Source of the DNA: Cryobacterium sp.
GTDB taxonomy: Bacteria; Actinomycetota; Actinomycetes; Actinomycetales; Microbacteriaceae
Assembly (NCBI GenBank): GCA_014376815.1
Contig: JACMQV010000178.1
Span: 1-36,178 of the forward strand
Direction: 5' to 3'
Length of the DNA: 36,178 nt
Shown: positions 18,635-20,873 of the stretch, in pieces
Layout of the letters: each line of letters begins with the position of its first letter
Position numbering within the stretch: the stretch's first letter is position 1
Made by a program: the position numbers and the translations under genes
Notes under the pieces: model-generated
What the model was told of the DNA's origin: nothing
What the model saw: only the letters and a program-made list of their open reading frames with translations
Databases searched by the model: none

Positions 18635-18808
18635 TCAGTGTTTGAAAGCGTCCTTGATGTTCTCGCCGGCCTTCTTCATACTGGCCGAGGCCTGCTGGGC
18701 CTTGCCCTCGGCGACCTGGGAATCATCATTGGTGGCCTTGCCGACGGCCTCAGTGGCCTTGCCCTTGAGATCCTCGGCGGCGTTCTCGATCTTGTCGGAT
18801 GCGCTCAC
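18635..18808 (-). CDS. CsbD-family stress protein
   Basis: A 57-residue hydrophilic, Lys/Ala/Glu-rich protein starting MSASDKIENAAEDLKGKATE and ending NIKDAFKH. The KGKATEAVGKAT and VAEGKAQQA pattern is that of CsbD proteins, small soluble helical proteins induced by general stress; their molecular function is not established. The start is GTG at 18808, preceded by AGGGAAG. It is divergent from the ECF sigma gene with 151 bases between them, suggesting it belongs to the same stress response. Confidence 0.85.
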   Translation of the reverse strand: MSASDKIENAAEDLKGKATEAVGKATNDDSQVAEGKAQQASASMKKAGENIKDAFKH

Positions 18809-18898
18809 GGCGTCTTCCCTTTCCGTTGGTGTTTCGTGGGAGCAGCATGCGTTCCTGGCTGCCGGATTCGGTCACTCATAAGACGTGGCTTGTGGCAT

Positions 18899-18922
18899 AT
18901 TTGTCACACGGATTTGTCAAAT
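18899..18922. promoter_or_regulatory. ATTTGTCA direct repeats between csbD and the sigma gene
   Basis: ATTTGTCA occurs at 18899-18906 and 18912-18919, 13 bases apart. The second is part of the palindrome ATTTGTCAAAT (18912-18922). This AT-rich patch stands out in an otherwise GC-rich divergent promoter region. It may be a regulator or sigma-factor recognition site; read on the minus strand it includes TTGACA. Confidence 0.4.
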
Positions 18923-18959
18923 GTCTTCTGGACACGGCGGGTGAGGAGGCGAAGAGGCG

Positions 18960-19538
18960 ATGCCAACGACCTCGACCCGGCAGCCGCTGGCGTCTCCGCT
19001 CGAATCCTTCCCCGACCGGACCCTGGCCGGCCGGGCGGCTGACGGCGACGTGCGGGCGTTCGAGGTGCTCGTGCGGCGCCACGGCCCGCTGATGCGGGTG
19101 TACGCCAGCCGGGTTCTCGGATCGAACGACGAAATGGACGACGTCGTGCAGGAGTCCTTCATCACCGCGTGGCAGCAGCTTCCGAACCTCGATAACGGCG
19201 GGGCCGTCAAGAGCTGGCTGATGCGGATCGTCAGCCGCAAGAGCATCGACCGGGTGCGTGCCCGGCGGCGGCACGTTGATATCGACCTCACGGATCCGCC
19301 GGCTCCGGAACGTGAGTCCCCGCATAGACTCGTGGAAGCGGAGTCACAGACGGAAGCCCTGACGCGTGTACTCGCCGAACTGCCTGAAGACCAGCGACGG
19401 TGCTGGATGCTCCGGGAGCTGGGCGAGTGCAGTTACGGCGACATCGCCGATGAGCTGGAACTGCCCGTCTCAACTGTTCGCGGGCTCCTGGCACGAGCTC
19501 GCAACACCCTGCTCCATGAGATGGAGGAATGGCGATGA
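18960..19538 (+). CDS. ECF-type RNA polymerase sigma factor
   Basis: A 192-residue extracytoplasmic-function sigma factor. Region 2 spans about 20-95: DVRAFEVLVRRHGPLMRVYA, DEMDDVVQESFITAWQQLP and SWLMRIVSRKSIDRVRARRR. Region 4 spans about 125-190: LAELPEDQRRCWMLRELGECSYGDIADELELPVSTVRGLLARAR. It would direct RNA polymerase to stress promoters. Its stop overlaps the next gene's start in an ATGA junction, the usual arrangement for a sigma factor and its anti-sigma partner, but here the partner is an Asp23-type protein. Confidence 0.92.
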   Translation: MPTTSTRQPLASPLESFPDRTLAGRAADGDVRAFEVLVRRHGPLMRVYASRVLGSNDEMDDVVQESFITAWQQLPNLDNGGAVKSWLMRIVSRKSIDRVRARRRHVDIDLTDPPAPERESPHRLVEAESQTEALTRVLAELPEDQRRCWMLRELGECSYGDIADELELPVSTVRGLLARARNTLLHEMEEWR

Positions 19539-20194
19539 CCTCATCGGATGAGCCCTCCGCAGCGTCCGTCGCGAACCAGACCGCCGCTCGCGAACTCGCC
19601 CAGTACGCCGGGCACACTCTGGAGGAGCTGAGCGACTATCTCGACCGGGACCGCACCCCCGCGGACCCGAGTACCGACGGCTCCCCGGAGTGCCAGATCG
19701 CCCTGCAGGGGATGCAGCGGCTTCGGCGAACGCAGCGCACCCTGCTGCGGGAGGATGTTCGGCGCGAGGTCGAGCGCGGCGACGGCTGGGTGACATCGAT
19801 CCTGGCGCACATCAGCCTCGAGGCGCGTTCCGGGCGCGACATCCCGATCGAGCACCCGTCTCCGAGTGCGCGTCTGGTGGTGACCGAGGGGGCCGTGCGC
19901 GGCATCCTTCGGGCCGCCGGTGACAGTCTCCCGAACATCATCGTGGGCCGGTGCCGTCTCGACGGCGACGTGACCGTGCCGGGCACCCCCATCACCGTGC
20001 GCGTCGACGCCTCGGTCCGGGAAGGGGAGAACATTCCGGCCACGGCCGGCGCCCTCCGGCGGGTGCTCTACGCTGCGCTGCGCCAGCACACGGATCTCAA
20101 CGTCGCCGCCGTCGACATCACGATCCGCGACCTCTATGCCGCGATCCCGGCTGCCGAAGTCCCCTCTCCAACGGAAGCGAGCAGCGATGAGTGA
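19535..20194 (+). CDS. Asp23/Gls24 family protein with anti-sigma-like N-terminus
   Basis: A 219-residue protein. The C-terminal half (about 105-205) resembles the Asp23/Gls24 alkaline-shock envelope proteins: ARLVVTEGAVRGILRAAGD, IIVGRCRLDG, ITVRVDASVREGENIPATAGALRRVLYAALRQHTDLNVAAVDI. The N-terminal part contains GHTLEELSDYLD followed later by SPECQIAL, spaced like the zinc-anti-sigma pattern of H-LEELSAYLD and CPEC, though the first CPEC Cys is a Ser. GGAGG lies seven bases before ATG 19535, favouring it over ATG 19529. The start overlaps the sigma stop as ATGA. It could both sense envelope stress and restrain the sigma factor; that dual role is inference. Confidence 0.8.
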   Translation: MTSSDEPSAASVANQTAARELAQYAGHTLEELSDYLDRDRTPADPSTDGSPECQIALQGMQRLRRTQRTLLREDVRREVERGDGWVTSILAHISLEARSGRDIPIEHPSPSARLVVTEGAVRGILRAAGDSLPNIIVGRCRLDGDVTVPGTPITVRVDASVREGENIPATAGALRRVLYAALRQHTDLNVAAVDITIRDLYAAIPAAEVPSPTEASSDE

Positions 20195-20516
20195 CGTCCT
20201 CCCCTCCGCCGGGCTGCTCGACGACCTGGTCCGGGCCGTCCCCGGCGTGGACACGCTGTACTCGGCCGCGCCTTTCGTGGCCACCGTGATCGCCGCCGCC
20301 GTTGACGCGGTGACCGGTCGGTCGTCCTCCGCCAACTCCGTGGTGATCGTGCAGCGCAAGTCCGGCCTGTGCGTTTCGGTCAAGATCGGCATTGTCGAGT
20401 CATTCGCCGCCACCGAGGTGTGCCGCCGCGTGCACGACGCCATCGCGGAGCAGCTCGACCGCACCGGCGAAGGGCCGGTGGCCGAGATCGCGGTCACGGT
20501 CGCCCGCATCGGCTGA
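20187..20516 (+). CDS. Short Asp23/Gls24-like protein
   Basis: A 109-residue protein overlapping the previous gene by eight bases, so the three genes form one transcript. It contains SSANSVVIVQRKSGLCVSVK, IGIVESFAATEVCRRVHDAI and ends GPVAEIAVTVARIG. This alternation of short strands and a helix resembles the Asp23 core without its C-terminal extension. No signal peptide is seen; the moderately hydrophobic stretch at about 28-42 is short for a membrane helix. It probably assembles with the larger Asp23 protein. The family assignment is weaker than for its neighbour. Confidence 0.65.
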   Translation: MSDVLPSAGLLDDLVRAVPGVDTLYSAAPFVATVIAAAVDAVTGRSSSANSVVIVQRKSGLCVSVKIGIVESFAATEVCRRVHDAIAEQLDRTGEGPVAEIAVTVARIG

Positions 20517-20640
20517 GGCGTCCACGAAATCCCCCGCGCTGTAGATGATCGGCCGGTTGCGGTTAACCTCGACGGCCCGCACGATGTGGGGGGAATGATC
20601 GCGCCGGTCAGACCGCCACGCCCCCGCCGCCCCCGCCGCC

Positions 20641-20735
20641 CCCCGAACCAATTCGACGGAGATTCTTCTCAAAAAGCGGGAATCAGGCCGAAAAAACCGG
20701 TCCCTGGCGAACATCTCCGTCGAATTGGTTCGGGG
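20641..20735. repeat. Palindromic dispersed repeat, copy 2
   Basis: Perfect 23-bp inverted arms, with the left beginning CCCCGAACCAATTCGACGGA, flank a spacer of about 49 bases. The arms are shared with the copy at 132-222 while the spacer is largely diverged, although TTCTC after the left arm and fragments such as GGCC recur. It sits in the 357-base gap between the Asp23 operon and the SDR gene. The rest of the gap holds a C-rich tract before the repeat and no gene. The conserved arms imply selection or recent mobility. Confidence 0.8.
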
Positions 20736-20873
20736 CGCGGGTGGCTCGGCGGGGGTGGTCGGCGACGAATCGGAACCTGGTCCCGCGCGGCCGGTAGCCC
20801 CAGGTCGGTGGCGAGTGCTAAATAGTGGTTAGCGCCGCACTCAGACCGCTATCGCTCGGAGAGGAACACCGTC

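Follow-up and report, generated by a model that had tools for sequence, protein, structure and literature searches.

A Cryobacterium sigma factor locus with a probable anti-sigma factor that joins a degenerate zinc anti-sigma domain to an Asp23-like domain

The window, i.e. the whole stretch of 36,178 nucleotides analysed here (Cryobacterium sp., assembly GCA_014376815.1, contig JACMQV010000178.1), carries at positions 18,635 to 20,516 a compact gene group in which the gene for an extracytoplasmic function (ECF) sigma factor overlaps with that for a two-domain protein. This arrangement raises the question whether the second protein is the anti-sigma factor of the first, what it would sense and which genes would respond. 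The locus is read here as an ECF sigma factor with its cognate class I-type anti-sigma factor, the zinc site of which has decayed and the C-terminal part of which is Asp23-like; a probability of about 0.8 is given to this reading. The source genome comprises 3.1 Mb in 301 contigs, with a completeness of 87.5% and a contamination of 6%, and the window is its contig C60. The nearest named relatives are Cryobacterium, with 82% identity to C. shii across the 219-aa second protein. The features of the locus are as follows, in window positions.

18635-18808, minus strand: csbD, CsbD-like stress protein of 57 aa with a GTG start (PF05532, E 9e-17)
18882-18907, minus strand: ECF-type promoter motif GTGACAAA-N14-CGTC directed towards csbD (-35 part 18900-18907, -10 part 18882-18885)
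18960-19538, plus strand: ECF sigma factor of 192 aa (Pfam Sigma70_r2, E 6e-18; Sigma70_r4_2, E 1e-14)
19535-19538, plus strand: ATGA in the sequence, the sigma stop overlapping the next start
19535-20194, plus strand: putative fused anti-sigma/Asp23-like protein of 219 aa, directly behind sigma (AlphaFold2 model)
19607-19831, plus strand: putative degenerate zinc anti-sigma domain, residues 25-99 (predicted helices, ligand columns, profile comparisons)
19835-20137, plus strand: Asp23-like domain, residues 101-201 (weak PF03780 match; profile comparison with canonical Asp23)
20187-20516, plus strand: short Asp23-like protein of 109 aa, overlapping the fused gene by 8 bases

All elements listed in the initial annotation of this DNA (csbD, the ECF sigma gene, the two-domain protein, the short gene, the ATGA overlap and two peptides) were found where it had placed them, the peptides HTLEELSDYLD and SPECQIAL being residues 27-37 and 50-57 of the 219-aa protein. 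The sigma factor scored 91.6 bits on the sigma70-ECF model TIGR02937, against a cut-off of 42.9. A second in-frame ATG of the fused gene is present at 19529, and the overlap arises only from the start at 19535.

To follow the gene pair through related bacteria, 274 loci were assembled from a scan of named genomes (the best 80 of 156 relatives kept), from searches at the levels of relatives, family, order and phylum, of which only the best places were listed and fetched so that weaker members lie outside the sample, and from 80 further stretches. Twenty-one loci from the phylum search (L204-L224) held no sigma gene and matched almost only the Asp23-like half; these were excluded from the pair counts. 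In all 253 sigma-holding loci a relative of the fused protein was encoded directly behind the sigma gene, and since it recurs in every one of them, the gene arrangement is far from chance. The 253 loci represent 208 distinct pairs, 196 of which show a four-base overlap (ATGA, GTGA or TTGA), so that the fused gene both adjoins and is coupled to an ECF sigma gene, as is characteristic of class I anti-sigma factors. A match to the protein was obtained in 22 of 40 relatives and in 159 of 398 family genomes (42 of 85 genera), the family tally possibly including genomes with an Asp23-type match only. Sigma-coupled relatives were also present in other families of the order, class and phylum, and most other matches listed in the order and phylum searches covered the Asp23-like part only.

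Among the findings that would count against its proposal, the initial annotation had named an anti-sigma gene standing separately in homologous loci. When two zf-HC2 anti-sigma profiles were run on the open reading frames of the 274 loci, both matched only fused proteins (L150, L157, L198 and L199). The fetched flanks, about 0.15 to 3 kb, therefore hold no separate anti-sigma gene of the zf-HC2 type; the search did not extend to membrane anti-sigma factors or other types.

The part of PMC7406223 that deals with zinc-binding class I anti-sigma domains gives as their signature a Cys upstream of Hx3Cx2C. The N-domain of the window protein reads GHTLEELSDYLD...SPECQIAL, and the same stretch of a relative with the same gene order (L148) reads ECGHSLEELSTYLDTGDIPDPHHLAECPDC, which contains the upstream Cys and then Hx3Cx2C. 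In the window the four ligand columns hold a gap, Ser46, Ser50 and Cys53, and the ligand set of a zinc-binding anti-sigma (ZAS) domain is incomplete. Zinc states were counted for 206 distinct proteins, the 208 pairs less broken rows and those identical to the window. All four ligands were present in 18, all but the His in 10 and the last Cys only in 131, including the window; 42 had none and five were in between. Cys53 is kept in 164 of the 206 and His27 in 137. The relatives devoid of ligands, some of which belong to the same genus (e.g. L013-L020), keep the same gene order. The zinc states were clustered on a tree built from 68 of the sigma partners, with 10 changes compared to a mean of 38.4 after shuffling, and the four-ligand members were placed in outlying lineages and one inner group. 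On this tree, which is midpoint-rooted only, the simplest reading would be an ancestral zinc site that has since decayed.

Two genomes carry two sigma/fused pairs each, G012 (L003 and L023) and G013 (L006 and L024). The copies of G013 differ, one having the last Cys only and the other the three-Cys form. The sigma frame is in pieces at L045 (C. breve TMT4-23) and L051 (Cryobacterium sp. M96), either by real decay or by assembly error.

The N-domains were compared by profile with two zf-HC2 yardstick sets, asdA (19 proteins) and asdB, encoded by genes adjoining ECF sigma genes in related genomes and experimentally uncharacterised; asdA was taken as RsrA-like. Window-type N-domains matched seven zinc members of one family with a probability of 99.8% (E 3e-28) and five farther zinc members with 91.5%. 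The 13 zinc members in turn matched asdA with 94.7% (E 6e-8). Three unrelated control profiles (csbD, the 109-aa protein and sigma) stayed below 2%. Because both the zinc members and the yardstick had been selected by the HxxxCxxC motif, all other columns were shuffled as a control while those of the motif were kept fixed, and none of 60 shuffles reached the score of the 13 zinc members with asdA. Similarity to class I domains thus runs by way of the zinc-bearing relatives, at 99.8% and then 94.7%, the direct comparison being weak. The degenerate zinc-anti-sigma domain suggested at the N-terminus by the initial annotation is supported by these comparisons, as C + Hx3Cx2C is intact in relatives encoded at that gene position and the profiles reach sigma-linked zf-HC2 proteins through them. 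A zf-HC2 label for the window protein itself was dropped, HMMER having given no support.

The AlphaFold2 model of the fused protein had a mean predicted local distance difference test (pLDDT) score of 86.8 and a predicted template modelling (pTM) score of 0.56. Helices were predicted at residues 29-37, 45-48, 51-79 and 83-98, followed by an alpha/beta domain at 102-201. Small alpha/beta domains filled the list when the whole model was used in a fold search, among them the C-terminal domain of MamM (6h88; Z 9.9, root mean square deviation 2.5, 79 residues aligned). As the Asp23-like half dominated this list, the N-domain was also modelled alone. By sequence, the family profile gave two chance-level matches among solved structures, and one zinc-bearing relative gave three unrelated ones (best E 0.011). 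Class I anti-sigma domains are reported to bind sigma through helix 1 and helix 4, with a conserved aromatic residue of helix 4 in some groups (PMC7406223, in the part on these domains). Among the 206 proteins Tyr35 is conserved in 188 and Asp37 in 168, both in helix 1, and Trp85, in helix 4, in 183. This conservation is suggestive, fitting the sigma contacts of class I domains.

The Asp23/Gls24 domain that had been assigned to the second protein stood at the level of the family and fell short for the window sequence alone. The window protein matched Asp23 weakly over residues 121-200 (21.5 bits, E 3e-4), below the curated Pfam cut-off of 28. Each of the 79 aligned members, that of the window among them, nevertheless matched at E 1 or better, the best at 1e-8, and five of ten distant relatives scanned passed the cut-off. 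Against the profile of seven canonical Asp23 proteins, the domain profile reached a probability of 95.9. That canonical profile was seeded with the seven distinct sequences from an initial, overly strict regular expression, which had recovered 10 of 134 loci. Of the shorter overlapping gene, also called Asp23-like at the outset, presence and overlap were borne out and the likeness was marginal (20187-20516, E 0.03). The profile of its 109-aa family gave a probability of 78 with the Asp23-like domain of the fused protein and of 45 with canonical Asp23. In the first survey, with 99 distinct loci, a homologue of it lies behind the fused gene in 87.

The layout of a GTGACRAA-N14-CGTC-like motif is typical of ECF promoters. 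In the window 73 bases separate the end of this motif from the csbD start, and 71 of 132 distinct loci hold a wider form of it at the same divergent place, a raw count without chance expectation. The 68 distinct named loci include 37 in which canonical Asp23 is encoded opposite to the sigma strand; the motif is present in 35 of these 37. It was found in one of 14 named loci with a same-strand Asp23 gene and in five of 17 whose flank lacks Asp23. In the window, csbD occupies the divergent place held by the Asp23 gene in those 37 of 68 named loci.

Across 25 genomes of the genus, 142 exact GTGACRAA-N14-CGTC sites were counted. Within 400 bp upstream and on the gene's own strand, an exact site precedes 26 of 35 canonical Asp23 genes, where 0.01 would be expected and the other strand gave 0. 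The same distance held an exact site for four of 37 csbD genes, again with 0.01 expected. Of the 35 Asp23 genes, 20 stand at a sigma locus and the motif precedes 16 of these; the remaining 15 stand elsewhere, and it precedes 10 of them (a split made by hand from the coordinates). Through these 10 of 15 the enrichment is independent of the places from which the motif was taken. In the incomplete genome of the window, the only canonical Asp23 gene found is located on the minus strand at C168:7030-7353, and the motif occupies C168:7465-7490 of that strand. Canonical Asp23 was absent from three of the 25 genus genomes (G001, G017 and G022), exactly the three without the fused protein, in a comparison made irrespective of kinship.

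Since the motif precedes csbD, the genome's own canonical Asp23 gene and 26 of the 35 Asp23 genes of the genus, Asp23 and CsbD are probably under the control of the sigma factor, the anti-sigma factor of which would carry a relative of Asp23. The view of csbD as part of the stress switch was given up in the process. The gene is more probably a target, having an ECF-type promoter upstream and occupying the place usually held by a motif-bearing Asp23 gene. Curtobacterium belongs to the same family as Cryobacterium. According to the relevant part of PMC12029717, Asp23/Gls24 and CsbD proteins increased in a Curtobacterium on drying, as did two unspecified sigma factors. This fits a stress role of the locus, without identifying this sigma factor.

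Other genes were also seen behind the motif. Canonical Asp23 and CsbD occur in a single open frame, divergent to sigma, at L230:792-1445 (G005) and also at L012; this single frame was seen in one genome and could be a sequencing error. A CinA-like gene lies directly behind the motif in G004 (L237; Pfam CinA, E 3e-35), with a very similar frame in G024 (L243), and a polyketide-cyclase-like gene in G007 (L244). The CinA-like and polyketide-cyclase-like genes are possible further members of the regulon.

Most likely, the second protein acts as the anti-sigma factor of the adjoining sigma factor, judging from its zinc-bearing relatives in the same gene position, the profile link to zf-HC2 and the flanks lacking another gene of that type, and the corresponding proposal of the initial annotation is upheld in this form. 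ChrR and RsrA are the model class I anti-sigma factors; the fold of this class is a helix bundle, the fourth helix of which binds sigma region 2. From the features above we infer that the presumably soluble anti-sigma factor probably binds sigma by helix 1 (LEELSDYLD) and helix 4 (Trp85) and would thereby keep it off RNA polymerase, while translational coupling through ATGA would hold the two proteins at near equal amounts. Because the zinc site is gone, the signal would most simply enter via the Asp23-like domain, or it may come via the third protein, also Asp23-like. Such a signal would release sigma, and transcription could start from GTGACRAA-N14-CGTC promoters of the adjoining csbD and of a canonical Asp23 gene elsewhere. 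A self-reading switch can tentatively be imagined beyond this: sigma would make Asp23, and the Asp23-like domain of its anti-sigma factor would gauge free or membrane-assembled Asp23 by homotypic contact, having replaced in Cryobacterium and related lineages an ancestral zinc (redox) switch, the ligands of which were lost stepwise. This extension is possible, with the odds leaning against it.

Several results weigh against, or lend no support to, the anti-sigma reading and the proposed regulon. Compared directly with asdA, the window-type N-domain reached a probability of only 2.6%, albeit with none of 60 shuffles as good, and its match to asdB was nil (0.17), 37 of 60 shuffles equalling it. 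Taken alone, the five farthest zinc members reached no more than 25% with asdA, and the score of the seven nearer ones with asdB was surpassed by one of 60 shuffles. Pfam zf-HC2 was non-significant even in members with the zinc motif (best E 0.076, 10 scanned). The isolated N-domain model, in which helices 3 and 4 are fused into one long helix, gave eight matches among solved structures, with a best E of 4.1 and no anti-sigma factor among them. A mean-field covariation analysis of sigma with the fused protein, run on 205 of the 206 pairs after one more row was dropped (effective number 113), placed top pairs in both halves about as their lengths predict, with no excess in the N-domain, and is taken as evidence for neither side. 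On the side of the promoters, the exact motif is absent at nine of 35 Asp23 and 33 of 37 csbD genes, the three genomes without the system still hold 3, 2 and 2 sites at chance level (mean of 6.1 in the other 22), and no promoter could be assigned to the sigma operon itself.

The lack of a significant zf-HC2 or fold match and the uninformative covariation would suit a fused protein that is an Asp23-type envelope protein merely co-transcribed with sigma, its N-terminal helices serving oligomerisation or membrane contact and sigma being controlled otherwise, by transcription, a kinase or a distant anti-sigma factor. This is unlikely in view of the intact C + Hx3Cx2C of relatives at the same gene position, of a profile similarity to sigma-linked zf-HC2 that exceeds the motif, of flanks with no other zf-HC2-type gene and of the sigma coupling in 253 of 253 loci. 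A retained redox or metal switch was considered as well. RsrA and ChrR sense redox or metal through their N-domain, and Cys53 could, with His27 or other residues, bind metal or react, so that the N-domain would be the sensor. The frequent retention of Cys53 (164 of 206) and His27 (137 of 206) and the three ligands left in 10 relatives speak for such a switch. It is nonetheless quite improbable for a protein in which three of the four ligands are missing (gap, Ser46, Ser50) and of which 42 of 206 relatives, some in the same genus, are ligand-free with the same gene order.

The promoters themselves might be read by another ECF sigma factor, which would own the csbD and asp23 genes. The genomes do contain further sigma/anti-sigma pairs, seen as zf-HC2 genes adjoining sigma genes, and promoter recognition is beyond the reach of sequence alone. 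The occurrence of the wider motif beside this very sigma gene in 71 of 132 distinct loci, and the absence of canonical Asp23 from just the three genus genomes without the fused protein, make a foreign reader unlikely. The cognate anti-sigma factor with a decayed zinc site is kept as the preferred reading.

Just downstream of the locus, at 20621-20755, lies a palindromic repeat, the arms of which contain CCGAACCAATTCGACGGAGA, with 49 bases between the extended arms. Arm matches with at most two mismatches numbered 119 in this genome, 175 in G012, 43 in G005, 34 in G008 and 0 in G019. This dispersed family looks like a repetitive extragenic palindromic (REP) or miniature inverted-repeat transposable element (MITE) type.

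If correct, the preferred reading describes the anatomy, evolutionary history and predicted regulon of a class of sigma/anti-sigma pairs hitherto known from prediction only. It makes testable what triggers Asp23-type envelope proteins in actinobacteria and how an anti-sigma factor senses without its zinc site. Should the Asp23-like domain indeed read Asp23, the cell would have a simple way to gauge the state of its envelope.

The kind of protein is already known as a prediction. A literature search for Asp23 together with anti-sigma, ECF or sigma returned no title on such a protein among the matches listed. The account of groups ECF286 and ECF292 in PMC8999054 (its reference 7) predicts soluble anti-sigma factors of the Asp23 family for these groups and describes experimental data as lacking. 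The present locus resembles these groups in that an Asp23-like protein adjoins an ECF sigma factor, a likeness by gene context, with the Asp23 match below the Pfam cut-off. It differs from them, as they are described there, in the putative zinc anti-sigma domain that precedes the Asp23 part, in the decay of this domain and in Asp23 genes as predicted targets. With the class I zinc anti-sigma factors ChrR, RsrA and RsiW, the fused protein shares an N-domain predicted to be helical, the C...Hx3Cx2C of its distant members and the coupling to an ECF sigma gene; unlike them, it lacks three of the four ligands in the window and ends in an Asp23-like part. The Asp23/Gls24/YqhY family has been assigned roles in membrane association and the control of lipid synthesis (PMC8144471, in its treatment of the family). 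The C-terminal half resembles Asp23 as in Asp23 of Staphylococcus aureus and YqhY of Bacillus subtilis, whereas an extra N-domain, the tie to a sigma gene and a score below the Pfam cut-off set the window protein apart from plain Asp23. To the predicted Asp23-family anti-sigma factors of ECF286 and ECF292, the present analysis adds a probable N-terminal zinc anti-sigma domain, the graded loss of this domain and a predicted regulon of Asp23 and CsbD.

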